Program-made: the position numbers and the translations under genes
Shown here: piece after piece, positions 41,880 to 46,879 of the stretch
Position numbering within the stretch: position 1 is the first letter of the stretch
Layout of the letters: each line of letters opens with the position of its first letter
Source of the DNA: Plesiomonas shigelloides
GTDB taxonomy: Bacteria; Pseudomonadota; Gammaproteobacteria; Enterobacterales; CAMTGL01
Direction of reading: 5' to 3'
Assembly (NCBI RefSeq): GCF_900087055.1
Contig: NZ_LT575468.1
Coordinates: 992,001 to 1,056,000, forward strand
Length of the DNA: 64,000 nucleotides
Notes under the pieces: model-generated
Databases searched by the model: none
The model's input: only the letters and a program-made list of their open reading frames with translations
What the model was told of the DNA's origin: nothing

Positions 41880-42055
41880 ATAATCTTGGCCGGACTTTTG
41901 ATTTGGCAGAGGATTAGGCGGTTCTTGCGCGAGTAATCAATCTGTTAATCATTGATTTTAAAGAAATATAACGAGGGTGACGTGCTTTGTCACAGGATGA
42001 AGCAATTATGCATGAACATCTGCGTTATGCTACACGCAGCAAAGGAGATAAGACG

Positions 42056-42373
42056 ATGGTAACGATTCCTGACTATTTTACCTGTCACAAGCAGACCCCA
42101 TTTTTTAATCGCGATAGCGTACCGGCGGCATTGCTCAGTTGGCATAACACACGTGCTGGGGTGTATGCGCGATTATCGGTGATGCGTGGTGGGATCTGTT
42201 TTACCGGTTTTCGCGGTGAAACGCAGGAGATTGAGCGGGAAGTGATTGTGGCAGCAGGGCAGTTTTTGGTCGCGCCGCCGCAGTACTGGCACAAAATTGC
42301 CTTACTGACCGACGATACCTGTTTTAATCTGGATTTCTTTTCTGATCCACAACTGCATGACACTACCGAGTAA
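42056..42373 (+). CDS. yeaR: YeaR-like protein, DUF1971 cupin
   Basis: This 105-residue protein has a cupin-like fold resembling E. coli YeaR: TPFFNRDSVPAALL, GVYARLSVMRGGI, VAAGQFLVAPPQYWHKI and DTCFNLDFF. AAAGGAG lies about 8 bases upstream of the ATG at 42056; an in-frame start at 41987 is unlikely. E. coli yeaR-yoaG is controlled by nitrate (NarL) and NsrR, so its divergent position over the same NsrR-like sites as norVW supports a nitrosative-stress role. The biochemical function is unknown. No yoaG-like gene follows. Confidence 0.82.
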   Translation: MVTIPDYFTCHKQTPFFNRDSVPAALLSWHNTRAGVYARLSVMRGGICFTGFRGETQEIEREVIVAAGQFLVAPPQYWHKIALLTDDTCFNLDFFSDPQLHDTTE

Positions 42374-42472: not shown

Positions 42473-43636
42473 TTAATCCAAAATGATATGCGGGATGTAG
42501 CGCGACAAGTCTTGCGTTACTAAGCTGGCATCTTCACGGATCGCGATCCCCGCTGGCTCATCATCAATCAACCAACTGCCAATTAAGGTGTAGTTATCAC
42601 CAAATTTGGGCAGTGGATGATAAGCTTGCCAAATCATCCCTTCCTCACCATACGGCCCATCCACCTCGTACACGGTTTTTTGATCCTGCACGATGCTGAT
42701 GTTGGCGCCTTCACGGGAGAACAGCGGTTTCACCACATAATCTTTCAGCGCACTGCGCGCCGGATCATCGGCAAAATAAGCCGGTAGCAGATTCGGGTGA
42801 TTCGGGAAACGTTGCCACAGCAGCGGCAATAGCGCCTTGTTGGAGATGATCGATTTCCACATCGGCTCCAGCCATTGTACCTGCGCGCTGGCCAAATGTT
42901 CGGCATAGGCTTCGCGGAACATGAACTCCCACGGATAGAGCTTGAACATCCACTCGATAATTTGATCATCGGTATCAGTAAAGCGGCCATCGGCGCTTAA
43001 GCCAATCTCTTCGATGAAGACAAATTTGGTATTCAGGCCCGCTTCTTTGGCGCAATCTTCCAGATATTGCACCGTCCCGCGATCTTCCTCAGTATCCTGA
43101 CAGCAGGCAAAGTGTAGTGTGTGTGGGCTGTGCTGGTTTAACTGATGCAAACGGCGGATCAGCGCTTCTTGCACCAGATTGAACTGATCGGTATCGCGGC
43201 GTAGCTGACCGTTGTCGACGTTATCTTCCAGCCATAGCCACTGCCAAAACGCCGTTTCAAACAAGGAAGTCGGCGTATCGGCGTTGTTTTCATACAGCTT
43301 GGCCGGTGATTTACCGTCATAAGCCAGATCTAAACGCGAATACAGACTCGGATCGCGCCGTTTCCACGAGTCGGCCACTTGTTGCCATAACGGCTCGGGG
43401 ATCTGGCAGCGACGCAGCAGCACTTCATCGCGCACCACCTGATCGACAATTTCCAGACACATCTGGTGCAACTCTTGGGTCGGCTGCTCCAGATCTTGCT
43501 CGATCTGTTTGAGACTGAACTGGTAATAGGCGGTTTCATCCCAATACGGCTCGCCGTACATGGTATGAAAACCAAACCCGAACTCGGCGGCTAACGCGCG
43601 CCAGTTCGGGCGTTCTTTACAAGGAACGCGGAACAT
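42473..43636 (-). CDS. yjfC: YjfC/YgiC glutathionylspermidine synthase-like ATP-grasp protein
   Basis: The 387-residue protein is an ATP-grasp amide ligase resembling the synthetase half of Gsp, without the amidase domain. Conserved parts are [82 protein letters not shown] and [11 protein letters not shown]. The substrate is not known; the family has been suggested to ligate peptides or polyamines. Its start overlaps the stop of the yjfM gene by one base (TGATG). It is the last gene of the PspA-like yjf operon, as in E. coli. Confidence 0.9.
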
Positions 43637-44337
43637 CAGCCACCCCAGCTGCGACTGCTACTGCCGCTGTAAGAGCTTTTACGGGAAGACGACGATGACC
43701 AGCCGCTGCCACCGGAGCTGCTGCTGGAGCGATCATCACGCTTATCCCAGCTGGATTTGGCTTCTACGGTGGAGCCAAAACCGCCGCGCGACAAGGTGCG
43801 CGTTGCGGCCGGTTTTTCCTTCAGCGCATTGTTATCCAGCGTGACATTACGGTTGCTGGTGCCGGCGTTGCCGTAGCTATAACCGGTGGAGGTGGTCCAT
43901 TTACCGTAGTTGGGATTACGTTGATCTTTGGGGATAAACACCGGCACGTTGCTGTAACTTGGGCGGCCACTGTTCATCAATTTACCGAACATATAACCGG
44001 CCATCATCGGCATAAACCAGCCGGTGCCCGGTGATTGCACGCACTGTCCGGCACCAAACTCGGCCACACAGTCCGATTCACTGTTATAGCGCGGCGCAGT
44101 TTTCGCTGCTTCGGCCAGTGCGTTCTGGTAAGCGGTTTGACACTCGGCGGCCAAGGTCGGGTTCTGATTAATACATTCCGACAAGTTCTTGAACACTTCG
44201 GCGGATACCTGTGGTTGGGCTTCATCGCCACAACCGGCCAGCACCATGCTGCTGACCGCCACGGTCAACGGTGCCAGTTTAAAAGGACGCCAAGTTTTAC
44301 GTAACTTTTCGCGCAGAATGTTCTGACTGCGTTTCAT
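43636..44337 (-). CDS. yjfM: YjfM/YgiB lipoprotein (DUF1190)
   Basis: The 233-residue protein has a lipoprotein signal: a basic N-terminus, then [11 protein letters not shown] with Cys36 as the lipidation site. The conserved part includes [47 protein letters not shown] and RGGFGS. The C-terminal 40 residues are nearly all Ser, Gly, Arg and Lys, ending SSSRSWGG. The function is unknown. It is always paired with an ATP-grasp YjfC/YgiC gene, here with a one-base overlap, suggesting that its tail might be the ligase's substrate (a hypothesis). Confidence 0.88.
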
Positions 44338-44348
44338 TCTGCTCTCCT

Positions 44349-44759
44349 TTAGTAGGTCATACAGGCGGCGTTCAGCAAACCGACGGACACGGACATACCG
44401 GCCATCACGATGCCTGCGCCAATTTCATTGTTGTTGATCCGCTCGACAAAGCTTGGCATCAAGCCAAAGCGGACAATCAGGAAGGCGATGATCTGGGCAA
44501 ACAGCGCCACAATGCCCCAGACAATAAAATCAAATAGGCTGACGGAATTACTGGCGGCACTGGCAATGGCCAAGCTGTAACCGATAAAGGCACCGGCCAG
44601 CGTCACCGCCGCTGCAACATTCTTCTGTTCTTTAACCAACGCCCACTCATCGTAAGGGGTGACGCGCACATAAGCCCACTTAAACACCATCAACATGATG
44701 AGTGCGGTAAAAAAGTACAGAGCAAAAGATCCGAGTCCGGCCAGTAACGCCACAGTCAT
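44349..44759 (-). CDS. yjfL: YjfL, DUF350 membrane protein
   Basis: The protein has 136 residues and four hydrophobic helices, with YVRVTPYDEWALVKEQKNVAAA, GYSLAIASAASNSVS and NNNEIGAGIVMAG as DUF350 landmarks. The start is uncertain: ATG 44759 lies only one or two bases after AAGGAG, while a GTG at 44753 is better spaced and gives the E. coli N-terminal length. It should sit in the inner membrane and is a good candidate anchor for the PspA-like YjfJ. The C-terminus NAACMTY closely matches E. coli NAACMTW. Confidence 0.88.
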   Translation of the reverse strand: MTVALLAGLGSFALYFFTALIMLMVFKWAYVRVTPYDEWALVKEQKNVAAAVTLAGAFIGYSLAIASAASNSVSLFDFIVWGIVALFAQIIAFLIVRFGLMPSFVERINNNEIGAGIVMAGMSVSVGLLNAACMTY

Positions 44760-44887
44760 TCTCCTTGGCAGCAGCTGCCTATATGGTAAATCGCACGTCA
44801 TTTTACGCGGTGAAATGCCGTGCGTGATGTAAACACGTCTTTTCCATCACGCAGGTTTAGGCTGCGTTAATGTACGTCGCGGTAGTG

Positions 44888-45526
44888 TTAGATTACTTTA
44901 AAGTCGGTCGGGGTCAGGTTAATCCCGGTGCTGATCACCAATGCGCGCTCCTGATCGTTGAAGATCAGTTTTTCTTCGGCAGAGATCATCACGAACTCAT
45001 CCAGCGAATCATTCACATGCCGTTGATACAGCATAATGAATTGATCGGTTTCCGACGGGTACAGGGTACCGGCATTCCAGGTTTTCTCGGTCATGGCGAC
45101 CGGCCGCTCGTTATGCCACACCTTCTCGAAGGTTTCCCCTTCCAGTGACCATTCGCTGCGCACAATGCCGTTTTGCAGCAAATCATCCCAACTGGCCTGA
45201 GTATCGACCGCTTGCGTCTGATAAAAATACCACAATTTGACATCAATGACGTGGCTGTCTTCGGTTCCACCTTGCTGTAAAACCTGAATAAAGCCTTCAT
45301 CATCGGTGTAAAAACGCAGCAGGCGGCTGTTATCGTCCAGCTTCACTTCACCTACCGCTTGAATAATCTGGCTGCGCGCCGCACCTTCAAAAATCACATG
45401 CGGCTCAATTAAGCGCAGTGCCAGATCATCGAATTCCACCACGCCGCCTAAGCGCAGACCGAGCACTTCTGGTGTGCTGGGCGTAGTCGGTGCTGGCGCG
45501 GTTTTCTTTTTGAACCAGTCAAACAT
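44888..45526 (-). CDS. yjfK: YjfK, DUF2491 family protein
   Basis: The 212-residue protein begins MFDWFKKK, then VLGLRLGGVVEFDDLALRL, RLLRFYTDDEGFIQV and LWYFYQT, typical of DUF2491. No signal peptide or membrane segment is seen, although the basic aromatic N-terminus could touch the membrane. The function is unknown. It lies in the yjf operon between the DUF350 gene and the PspA-like gene. Confidence 0.87.
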   Translation of the reverse strand: MFDWFKKKTAPAPTTPSTPEVLGLRLGGVVEFDDLALRLIEPHVIFEGAARSQIIQAVGEVKLDDNSRLLRFYTDDEGFIQVLQQGGTEDSHVIDVKLWYFYQTQAVDTQASWDDLLQNGIVRSEWSLEGETFEKVWHNERPVAMTEKTWNAGTLYPSETDQFIMLYQRHVNDSLDEFVMISAEEKLIFNDQERALVISTGINLTPTDFKVI

Positions 45527-45699
45527 AGTCAGTCCTACCTTGATGCTGACAGCTATGGAGTGTTGTTATGCCACAGATGGTGAGCTTGTTGTGTTAGCGT
45601 CTATTTTTTGCGCTAACGGTTCATGCTAACTACCGCGCTATTCTAGTCTAGGTGCGGCATCACACGTTGCGCTGTGTTAAGACGTTATTAACGCTATTT

Positions 45700-45760
45700 A
45701 ACCGTCAATAAGACAAAACCCCGGCGCACCTGATAGGGATGCCCGGAGTCATAGGAACGT
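45700..45760 (-). terminator. Possible attenuating hairpin between yjfJ and yjfK
   Basis: On the minus strand CTCCGGGCA can pair imperfectly with TGCGCCGGGG and is followed by TTTTG, within a 257-base gap. It may reduce read-through from yjfIJ into yjfKLMC. The stem is imperfect. Confidence 0.35.
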
Positions 45761-45783
45761 CTCGGCGCAGCCGGTGGCTGCGA

Positions 45784-46476
45784 TTACTGTTTGCGGGCCA
45801 GAATGCGGGCCAGTTCATCTTTGGCCGAATTATTGGCACTGCCGGTGATCCCTGCTTGCTTCAGTTTCGCTTGCAGAGCATCGCCACTTTCTTCGGCGTA
45901 TTGCTCAGCTGCCGCTTCCAGCTTGGCTTGTTGTTCGGCTTGTTTTTGCTTGATGCGATCTAATGATTCTACGGCCGTGCGCATTTTGGAGTTCGCGCCC
46001 ACGTTACGCGCAGAGACCGCCGCTTGTGCTTTTTGCACGGTTTCGGTGGCTTTGACCACATCCACTTGCTGCTCTAACTGGCGCAGTTTCTCTTTCGCCT
46101 GCGTGATGTTATTACGCAGGGTATCTGCCGAGTGGCTGAACTGATCCAGATAACGCTGCTCGCCTTCTTGCTCATCGCGCAGCTTGCTGACACGCTCGGC
46201 GCACTCTAACGCCAGCGCTTCTTCGCCTTTTTCCATTGCGCTGATGGCATGTTGCTCATACTCGCTGATGCTTTGTGCCAGCGCTTGCACTTTCTGCTCA
46301 GACAGTTTGCGCTTGGCGATGATGCTGGCCAGTGCTCTGTCAGATTGACGCAGCTCTTCTTTGGCTTCACGAATTTCTTGATCCAAAATGCGCAGCGCCT
46401 GACTGTCGGCAATGGTTTCAGCCGCTTCGTTCACGCCACCTTTTACGGCGGTAAATAACTTTTTCCAAATACTCAT
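45784..46476 (-). CDS. yjfJ: YjfJ, PspA/IM30 family protein
   Basis: PspA/IM30 proteins are bacterial ESCRT-III relatives that polymerise on and stabilise the inner membrane. The 230-residue product starts MSIWKKLFTAVKGGVNEAAE (an amphipathic helix) and is then an almost continuous charged coiled coil: EIREAKEELRQSDRALASI, HAISAMEKGEEALAL, LDQFSHSADTLRNNITQAKEKL. The C-terminal third is Ala/Glu/Lys-rich. The start at 46476 is chosen by alignment; the open frame upstream overlaps yjfI and is not protein-like. It is the core of the yjf operon, lying directly after yjfI. Confidence 0.92.
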   Translation of the reverse strand: MSIWKKLFTAVKGGVNEAAETIADSQALRILDQEIREAKEELRQSDRALASIIAKRKLSEQKVQALAQSISEYEQHAISAMEKGEEALALECAERVSKLRDEQEGEQRYLDQFSHSADTLRNNITQAKEKLRQLEQQVDVVKATETVQKAQAAVSARNVGANSKMRTAVESLDRIKQKQAEQQAKLEAAAEQYAEESGDALQAKLKQAGITGSANNSAKDELARILARKQ

Positions 46477-46486
46477 AATGGATAAC

Positions 46487-46879
46487 TCACTGTAAATAAT
46501 CGTCGTAAAGGTCAATAAATGCGGCGATATTACGGAATAATGTCGCGATTTCCGCATCAATAGCCTCGAATGAGGAGTGGGAGGAGAGCGCCCCGAATGC
46601 CGTGTAGTATTCGGTATCGTCAATCCGGTTAATCCCGATACTGGTTAGCGGAAACAGTTTATGTGTACGCAGGATGTAAGCATCCAGCGCGGCGCAATCT
46701 TTGACTTGCGCTGCACTGAACAGCAGGCTTTCCACCAGAATTTGTTCACCGGCAATGGCCAGATAGGCTTCCAGACCTTCATCGTTACGGATCACTAACG
46801 TATCGCCCTGCGGCTCGGTATGCCAACCGGCATGCGCTTGCAGGTGCTGAAGTAAATCAGAGAGTTGCCATTGCATCAT
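46487..46879 (-). CDS. yjfI: YjfI, DUF2170 family protein
   Basis: The 130-residue acidic protein shows LSDLLQHLQ, DTLVIRNDEGLEAYLAI, EQILVESLLF, RTHKLFPLTSIGI and YYTAFGALSSHSSFEAIDAEI, the DUF2170 pattern. Its start is one of two adjacent ATG codons with GGGAG upstream. It is the first gene of the six-gene operon and is found beside PspA-like genes in other genomes. Function unknown. Confidence 0.87.
   Translation of the reverse strand: MMQWQLSDLLQHLQAHAGWHTEPQGDTLVIRNDEGLEAYLAIAGEQILVESLLFSAAQVKDCAALDAYILRTHKLFPLTSIGINRIDDTEYYTAFGALSSHSSFEAIDAEIATLFRNIAAFIDLYDDYLQ

Follow-up and report, generated by a model that had tools for sequence, protein, structure and literature searches.

The closest described relatives of the locus analysed here are the third group of CesT/Tir-PspA operons of Ravi et al. 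2024 (PMC11237479) and the bac operon of Pseudomonas aeruginosa (Wallart et al. 2024, PMC10948618). As set out in the part of the former paper that treats these operons, group 3 has the same six families plus a potassium channel, its components include a glutathionylspermidine-synthetase-like ATP-grasp ligase, and polyamine sensing or the aminopropylation of other substrates is proposed; that discussion makes no mention of the tail motif described below. The six bacABCDEF genes are co-transcribed, the first of them encoding a DUF2170 protein and a PspA homologue, and a sigma54 promoter has been proposed for them; Wallart et al. liken the operon to the six-gene neighbourhood that Ravi et al. 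describe (PMC10948618). The crystal structure of BacA has a T3SS-chaperone (CesT/ExsC) fold (PMC10948618). E. coli YgiC and YjfC are peptide-spermidine ligases according to the passages of PMC10948618 and PMC12568646 that cite Pederick 2023, and their RefSeq names are likewise peptide--spermidine ligases. An earlier note on the present DNA took the system to be undescribed, which is wrong, since the operon is found in PMC11237479 and PMC10948618.

Six genes of the Plesiomonas locus

The locus occupies positions 42473-46879 of the window, the whole 64,000-nt stretch of Plesiomonas shigelloides contig NZ_LT575468.1 (GCF_900087055.1) that was analysed. It consists of six consecutive genes on the minus strand, whose products match the six expected families, all above the Pfam cut-off (Table 1). 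All six families recur in E. coli K-12, and their order is unchanged. The six-gene set and its conservation in E. coli, both claimed in the earlier note, are thus borne out.

Table 1. Features of the locus, in window coordinates.
Feature	Position	Strand	Basis
yjfI-like, DUF2170, 130 aa	46487..46879	-	Pfam 4e-35; homologue of P. aeruginosa BacA
yjfJ-like, PspA/IM30 family, 230 aa	45784..46476	-	Pfam PspA_IM30 2.6e-45
Gene-free interval, 257 bp	45527..45783	-	Sequence
yjfK-like, DUF2491, 212 aa	44888..45526	-	Pfam 2.7e-71
yjfL-like, DUF350 inner-membrane protein	44349..44759	-	Pfam 8.7e-39; start is the ATG after AAGGAGA
yjfM/ygiB-like, DUF1190 lipoprotein, 233 aa	43636..44337	-	Pfam 3.5e-50
RGGFG motif codons, residues 184-188	43774..43788	-	DUF1190 alignment
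C-terminal Gly-Gly codons	43639..43644	-	Putative acceptor end
Single-domain ATP-grasp ligase, YgiC/YjfC family, 387 aa	42473..43636	-	Pfam GSP_synth 6.8e-163

The yjfI-like product scores 90.7 bits against the NCBIfam BacA model NF050185, under its cut-off of 300. The yjfJ-like product scores 21 bits against canonical PspA (TIGR02977, cut-off 243), too low for a PspA orthologue; the gene is not canonical pspA, and the second PspA-family gene of this genome (G000:C1:1324069-1324716) is. The DUF2491 protein is predicted by AlphaFold2 to be mostly β-strand (pLDDT 91.2). Fold searches of the PDB gave zero matches at E≤0.001 for it, leaving it without a relative of known structure in that search, and zero at the same threshold for the DUF1190 protein.

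Three of the junctions are tight (yjfI-yjfJ, 10 bp; yjfL-yjfM, 11 bp; yjfM-ligase, 1-bp overlap), and for these the earlier description of genes that abut or overlap by one base stands, but two are wide (yjfJ-yjfK, 257 bp; yjfK-yjfL, 128 bp; 50 and 17 bp in E. coli K-12). Given these two gaps, the six genes may or may not be co-transcribed. In about 18 of 25 other six-gene loci, PspA and DUF2491 are separated by enough DNA for a gene; the four interval genes run against Pfam are ion channels, and 13 of the 18 loci show a channel selectivity motif of the TVGYGD kind. The corresponding 257-bp interval of the window, the usual place of the K+ channel gene in relatives, contains no such gene, which makes it doubtful that the operon is complete, as had been supposed. 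The E. coli K-12 operon also lacks a channel gene, so the channel is not obligatory. A simple scan finds no sigma54 GG-N10-GC site in the 356 bp upstream of yjfI. Scans of both strands find no sigma70 promoter-like sites, terminator-like sites are no more numerous than expected by chance, and Rfam gives zero matches.

The ligase and the RGGFG tail

The GSP_synth domain spans residues 12-385 of the ligase, and no amidase domain is found in it (Pfam). With 60% identity to YgiC and 51% to YjfC, the ligase is nearer to YgiC than to YjfC, the name it was given at first. It matches their PDB entries with 546 bits (7uk8) and 465 bits (7uk6), respectively, and clusters with ligases of Oceanisphaera and Vibrio, apart from E. 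coli YjfC. The eight Gss catalytic residues checked, mapped on E. coli Gss, are all conserved (R101, D103, E116, N118, K267, K303, Q337 and R367). The glutathione-pocket residues S335, S337 and C338 are replaced by T, T and one of S, G or A in all 15 single-domain rows of the alignment, the window ligase having T121, T123 and S124. By sequence, the single-domain ligases have lost the pocket residues for the glutathione cysteine.

The adjoining lipoprotein has the features of the DUF1190 (YgiB/YjfM) family: a lipobox, a cysteine domain and an RGGFG tail. The alignment shows a KRS N-terminus, the lipobox Cys36 and four more invariant cysteines (55, 66, 90 and 99), and R184, G186 and G188 of the motif are invariant. 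AlphaFold2 predicts a folded domain at about residues 43-175, followed by a disordered Ser/Gly tail.

An RGGFG-like motif lies near the C-terminus of a secreted neighbour of all 34 single-domain ligases in a 200-genome sample, and in 53 of 54 non-redundant ligase partners; the strict GGFG is found in 0 of 1189 other ORFs. The distance of the motif from the C-terminus ranges from 8 to 49 residues, and the motif is more constant than the final residue. The partners end in -GG in 41 of the 54 (3.5 expected with the last 20 residues shuffled); several alphaproteobacterial and phage tails end in S, A or E. Because the last residue is not universal, the acceptor may lie elsewhere. The tail pattern holds in 80 named loci, two of whose partners are unlinked to the ligase, and two Photobacterium ligases without an adjoining partner have a tailed lipoprotein elsewhere in the same genome. 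It extends to Actinomycetota (Arthrobacter, and Nocardia as RGGLG). Some tail-bearing neighbours are not recognised as DUF1190 by Pfam, so the tail outlasts the rest of the protein. No tailed neighbour is found at the Azospirillum ligase locus L208 or at any of eight loci of bifunctional GspSA. A fresh viral set has the relaxed motif in 56 of 71 loci and the strict motif in 52 (background 7/1427); a few of the 15 loci without the relaxed motif have near variants such as RGGIG. The occurrence of such a tail beside single-domain ligases appears to be a new result.

In the 200-genome sample, 22 of 23 strong loci have DUF1190 next to the single-domain ligase, and this pair is the likely core of the module. 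PspA is absent from 25 of the 34 sampled loci with the pair and from many Enterobacterales loci likewise, and phages carry the lipoprotein and ligase without PspA and with little besides the pair; PspA is therefore best regarded as an add-on. Phage Motura has genes for homospermidine synthase, the tailed lipoprotein and the ligase in a row. Strict co-occurrence of all six families, the check suggested earlier, was looked for in the same 200 genomes and is not borne out: only 9 of 34 ligase loci have all six, and PspA, DUF350 and DUF2170 are mostly found apart from the ligase. One obligatory machine is thus unsupported.

A possible modification of the lipoprotein tail

Glutathionylspermidine synthetase acts on the glycine of glutathione. 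With this enzyme as the model, we lean towards an explanation in which the single-domain ligase adds a polyamine to the tail of the lipoprotein prior to its export, with PspA, the channel and DUF350 as attached partners. The two-part core would be the ligase and the adjoining membrane-anchored lipoprotein. The cytoplasmic ligase would recognise the RGGFG motif and the Ser/Gly tail on the lipoprotein precursor and form an ATP-dependent amide bond between an amine, most likely a polyamine, and the tail, probably at the C-terminal carboxylate (of glycine in most cellular members). Because the ligase is cytoplasmic and the tail ends outside the cytoplasm, modification must come before export, which would leave a cationic tail projecting into the periplasm at the envelope membrane. 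DUF350 (YjfL) would be a membrane partner, as would the K+ channel in relatives, and YjfI-YjfJ (a T3SS-chaperone-like protein and PspA) and YjfK may tie the module to membrane-stress control. The earlier suggestion of the lipoprotein as the substrate of the ligase gains from the 22/23 adjacency and from the tail motif outside DUF1190; the tail as substrate, the residue modified, the amine used and the physiological role are what we infer.

As to the amine, neither a recognisable spermidine synthase nor an nspC match above cut-off turns up in this genome; one nspC match (22.9 bits against 409) is taken as another decarboxylase. Spermidine is thus not made by either route, and import or another amine would be needed.

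Sister operons contain an aminopropyltransferase in place of the ligase. The lipoprotein adjoining their double DUF350 ends in -GK in 17 of 17, and the GK carrier is missing at five MFS-aminopropyltransferase loci (L212-L216). The Gly-Lys end would present an amine as acceptor.

Alternatively, the ligase may make a small peptide-polyamine metabolite, with the unmodified lipoprotein tail sensing or binding the product or the enzyme. The best-known relative, Gss, does modify a small molecule, the two genes are unlinked in the two Photobacterium genomes, and the variable distance of RGGFG from the C-terminus means that motif and chain end vary independently. We nevertheless think this rather unlikely: the residues of the glutathione-cysteine pocket have been replaced, phages with little besides the pair still keep the tail, and the pairing of Gly-Gly with ligases and Gly-Lys with aminopropyltransferases fits differing acceptor chemistry better than binding.

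Decidedly doubtful is a six-component membrane-remodelling system in which an inner-membrane coat of PspA (YjfJ) and YjfL is the working part and the ligase and lipoprotein accompany it. Members of the PspA family remodel membranes (as cited in PMC10948618), BacA mutants of P. aeruginosa accumulate the remaining Bac proteins to excess and are weaker biofilm formers (PMC10948618), and the six families cluster in 9 of the 12 DUF2491-bearing genomes of the 200. Against it stand the many pairs without PspA, in bacteria and phages, and the occurrence of YjfI-YjfJ with other partners too. It is very improbable that RGGFG serves as a signal for cleavage or sorting, with a protease cutting near Gly-Gly and the ligase acting on the new end or freed peptide. 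In favour of this are a rhomboid protease gene in one six-gene locus (L021), a Gly-Gly that follows a basic residue within the motif and a motif more constant than the last residue. Against it, the module is not accompanied by any conserved protease gene, the Ser/Gly stretch beyond the motif is kept everywhere and, in cellular members, terminal -GG far exceeds chance.

It is quite possible, though we hold this tentatively, that polyamination of envelope-protein C-terminal tails is a widespread bacterial and phage modification reached by two convergent chemistries, an ATP-grasp amide on RGGFG tails usually ending in Gly and membrane-fused aminopropyltransferases acting on Gly-Lys tails, with YjfIJKLMC as the PspA-coupled version. 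If so, bacteria and large phages would share a modification of envelope proteins that is new in kind, and the recurrence of polyamine enzymes beside PspA, DUF350 and ion channels would be accounted for. The shared tails name candidate substrates for YgiC/YjfC and for the MFS-fused aminopropyltransferases, and the predicted difference in acceptor chemistry between the two enzyme types is testable in E. coli K-12.

Comparison with known systems

The window operon belongs to the third CesT/Tir-PspA group, as that group is outlined in the relevant part of Ravi et al. (PMC11237479), and is probably the bac operon of P. aeruginosa. All six families of group 3 and of E. coli yjfIJKLMC are present; relative to these operons as outlined there, the window differs in having no channel gene, two wide gaps and a YgiC-type instead of a YjfC-type ligase. 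The likeness to the bac operon is judged on the six genes and on DUF2170 followed by PspA, and the sigma54 promoter proposed for bac has no counterpart by simple scan in the window.

The window ligase has the same catalytic residues as E. coli YgiC and YjfC (PDB 7uk6, 7uk7, 7uk8 and 7uka) and shares the ATP-grasp synthetase fold family with Gss/GspSA and trypanothione synthetase. It differs from Gss in lacking the amidase domain and in the replaced S335, S337 and C338 (27.5% identity), and from bifunctional GspSA in having a tailed neighbour.

MFS-spermidine synthase/DUF350 operons were reportedly treated by Li et al. 2019 (Biochem J 476:2579). They have an aminopropyltransferase for the ligase, a doubled DUF350, and DUF4178 for DUF2491; a profile comparison of the last two aligned the N-terminus alone, with 21% probability. 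Like the window operon, these operons, the second group of Ravi et al., have DUF350, DUF2170, PspA and a lipoprotein rich in Ser whose tail looks disordered. Their tail ends in Gly-Lys, without GGFG, whereas that of the window has RGGFG and ends in Gly-Gly.

The operon in the window and its known relatives

Six minus-strand genes of the window match, in order, the Pfam families DUF2170, PspA_IM30, DUF2491, DUF350, DUF1190 and GSP_synth. E. coli K-12 carries the same six families, as the earlier note had said. That note also described the genes as abutting or overlapping, which holds for three of the junctions (10, 11 and -1 bp, the first, fourth and fifth in gene order) but not for the second and third (257 and 128 bp). 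Neither sigma70-like promoters nor Rfam matches were found at the operon, and terminators are not in excess there. The DUF2491 product (YjfK) has a confidently predicted fold without a match to known folds. A short ORF lies between the operon and the minus-strand gene upstream; as judged by eye, it looks like an AraC-type regulator of which only the sugar-binding part is present and the DNA-binding part is missing.

The operon had been put forward as an undescribed system; it is already known. Ravi et al. (2024, PMC11237479) describe these genes as their third group of CesT/Tir-PspA operons, in which a potassium channel accompanies an ATP-grasp ligase, DUF350, DUF1190 and DUF2491. In P. aeruginosa, the six-gene operon bacABCDEF has at its start a DUF2170 protein followed by a PspA homolog; it is co-transcribed and influences biofilm, swarming and rhamnolipid. 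The other Bac proteins accumulate in a bacA mutant, and the fold of BacA is that of a type-III-secretion chaperone (Wallart et al. 2024, PMC10948618). YgiC and YjfC are peptide-spermidine ligases according to Pederick (2023), as cited in PMC12568646 and PMC10948618, and are so named in RefSeq. The window locus is another member of this kind of operon.

The ligase closest to that of the window in the genome collection is from an uncultured Plesiomonas (87% identity). In the ligase tree the window enzyme groups with the six-gene ligases of Oceanisphaera and Vibrio, E. coli YjfC lies on a separate branch, and the ligases of ygiBC pairs cluster together.

Co-occurrence of the families and the lipoprotein tail

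Strict co-occurrence of all six families, a check named in the earlier note, was not borne out in 200 genomes of the phylum. PspA-family genes are present in 67, DUF350 in 54 and DUF2170 in 22, mostly without the ligase. DUF2491 is present in 12, and in nine of them all six families lie in a single cluster, which consists of divergent halves in two cases. Of the 23 strong DUF1190 loci, 22 adjoin a single-domain ligase. By these counts lipoprotein and ligase form the tight unit, to which DUF350 usually belongs, and the PspA pair is an optional addition. In many Enterobacterales this unit consists of ygiBC only, and DUF1190 and ligase are all that is visible in 45 of 80 named loci. Between PspA and DUF2491, about 18 of 25 other six-gene loci leave room for a further gene, and those tested proved to encode ion channels; neither the window nor E. 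coli has this gene. In one six-gene operon a rhomboid protease gene lies between PspA and the channel gene.

The proteins encoded beside the ligase have their end in common: [S/T/K]RGGFG leads into a stretch rich in Ser and Gly that usually finishes with Gly-Gly. This motif was first noticed in the 200-genome sample and counted afterwards there, in relaxed form at 34 of 34 single-domain ligase loci and as strict GGFG at 28. In a later named set, 80 of 81 partner sequences have it; the one without (L158_8253) is a second DUF1190-like protein, encoded at a locus where a normal partner is present too. Among non-redundant partners, 53 of 54 have the motif and 41 of 54 have -GG as their last residues, where shuffling of the final 20 residues predicts 3.5. 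Strict GGFG occurs in none of 1189 other ORFs of the partner loci. Several partners too diverged for the DUF1190 profile keep the tail, and for the lone ligases of two Photobacterium genomes a partner was predicted elsewhere and found, with the tail, in both. No tailed protein was found at eight of eight bifunctional synthetase/amidase loci, and the one ligase-free DUF1190 locus (L052) has KKGGVGG in place of the motif. The tail signature is specific and was checked on sets assembled later than its first sighting, and it makes the question of the ligase's substrate testable. No statement on the motif was found in the literature examined, which did not include the primary papers on the enzymes.

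The window ligase and all rows compared with it retain the eight catalytic positions of the glutathionylspermidine synthetase Gss that were checked. At the positions of S335/S337/C338, which line the glutathione-cysteine site of Gss, bifunctional enzymes have S/S/C and single-domain enzymes T/T/S, G or A; this pattern fits an altered peptide substrate. The lipoprotein is predicted to have a folded domain (about residues 43-175) and a disordered tail, as a substrate of an enzyme would.

Plasmid, distant and phage loci

Outside the phylum, the motif is present as SRGGFG at an Arthrobacter plasmid locus, where the annotation of the tailed protein looks like an error, and as RGGLG at a Nocardia plasmid locus. 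Upstream of distant ligases in Brevibacillus, Bacillus and Leptolyngbya lie genes for secreted proteins whose Gly/Ser tails are looser. Among plasmid loci, one Azospirillum ligase has no tailed protein beside it.

Ligase relatives are encoded in 138 phage records. Ligase and tailed lipoprotein occur together in phages (L223, Motura; L224, phiAS4; L225, KARL-1; L226, LAh_9; viral loci L229-L304), several with very large genomes. Motura encodes homospermidine synthase, tailed lipoprotein and ligase consecutively, and LAh_9 a K+ channel, DUF1190 and ligase. In KARL-1 and on an Acinetobacter plasmid, a gene for a small multidrug-resistance-type transporter precedes those for the tailed lipoprotein and the ligase, and it may take the place of DUF350 or the channel. 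In a fresh scan of viral contigs the motif is upstream at 56 of 71 loci (52 strict) and in 7 of 1427 background ORFs. The last residue is less well kept than the motif in phages, and the phiPMW lipoprotein ends in SGG without RGGFG. In KARL-1 and phiAS4 the pair adjoins lysis-inhibition genes (RIIA; a gene annotated lysis inhibition), which suggests a role in lysis timing or in envelope strengthening during infection.

Coordinates of features in the window and in compared loci
Feature	Location	Remarks
Short ORF	window 41987-42373	plus strand
Rhomboid protease gene	L021:8225-8788	six-gene operon
Tailed protein	L202:3376-3879	Arthrobacter; annotated tRNA-dihydrouridine synthase; no Pfam domain
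Transporter gene	L207:2799-3146	Acinetobacter plasmid; upstream of lipoprotein and ligase
Transporter gene	L225:1110-1451	Acinetobacter phage; upstream of lipoprotein and ligase
Ser-rich protein	L195:3723-4529	ends SSSGFIG
Ser-rich protein	L197:3730-4662	ends SSSGFIG

Proposed mechanism and the sister operons

Gene association, tail conservation and catalytic residues are directly supported by the sequences compared, and from them we infer the substrate, acceptor residue, amine and function of the ligase-lipoprotein module. In the explanation that we favour, a polyamine would be joined to the lipoprotein tail in an ATP-dependent step prior to export, and export would leave a cationic tail outside the cytoplasm. 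DUF350, the channel and the PspA parts would act as membrane partners and regulators. The weakest point of this proposal in Plesiomonas is the amine supply, since the complete genome has no spermidine synthase (PF01564), though it keeps a spermidine-ligase-type enzyme, and no nspC above the cut-off.

In sister operons a membrane-fused aminopropyltransferase (Spermine_synth) stands in for the ligase. The Ser-rich lipoprotein beside the doubled DUF350, chosen by position and Ser/Gly content and not by its ending, ends in Gly-Lys, without GGFG, at 17 of 17 sister loci. A second small secreted protein at other sister loci also ends in Gly-Lys, with less weight because four of its seven examples came from a search for this very ending; no such carrier was found at five further aminopropyltransferase loci. 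At two loci with a doubled DUF350 but no recognised aminopropyltransferase, a Ser-rich protein has the ending SSSGFIG, which may represent a third type of tail, paired with a different enzyme. The ligase systems pair a carboxyl-presenting Gly with an amide ligase, whereas the sister operons pair an amine-presenting Lys with an aminopropyltransferase, a contrast to be expected of tails that serve as substrates in both systems.
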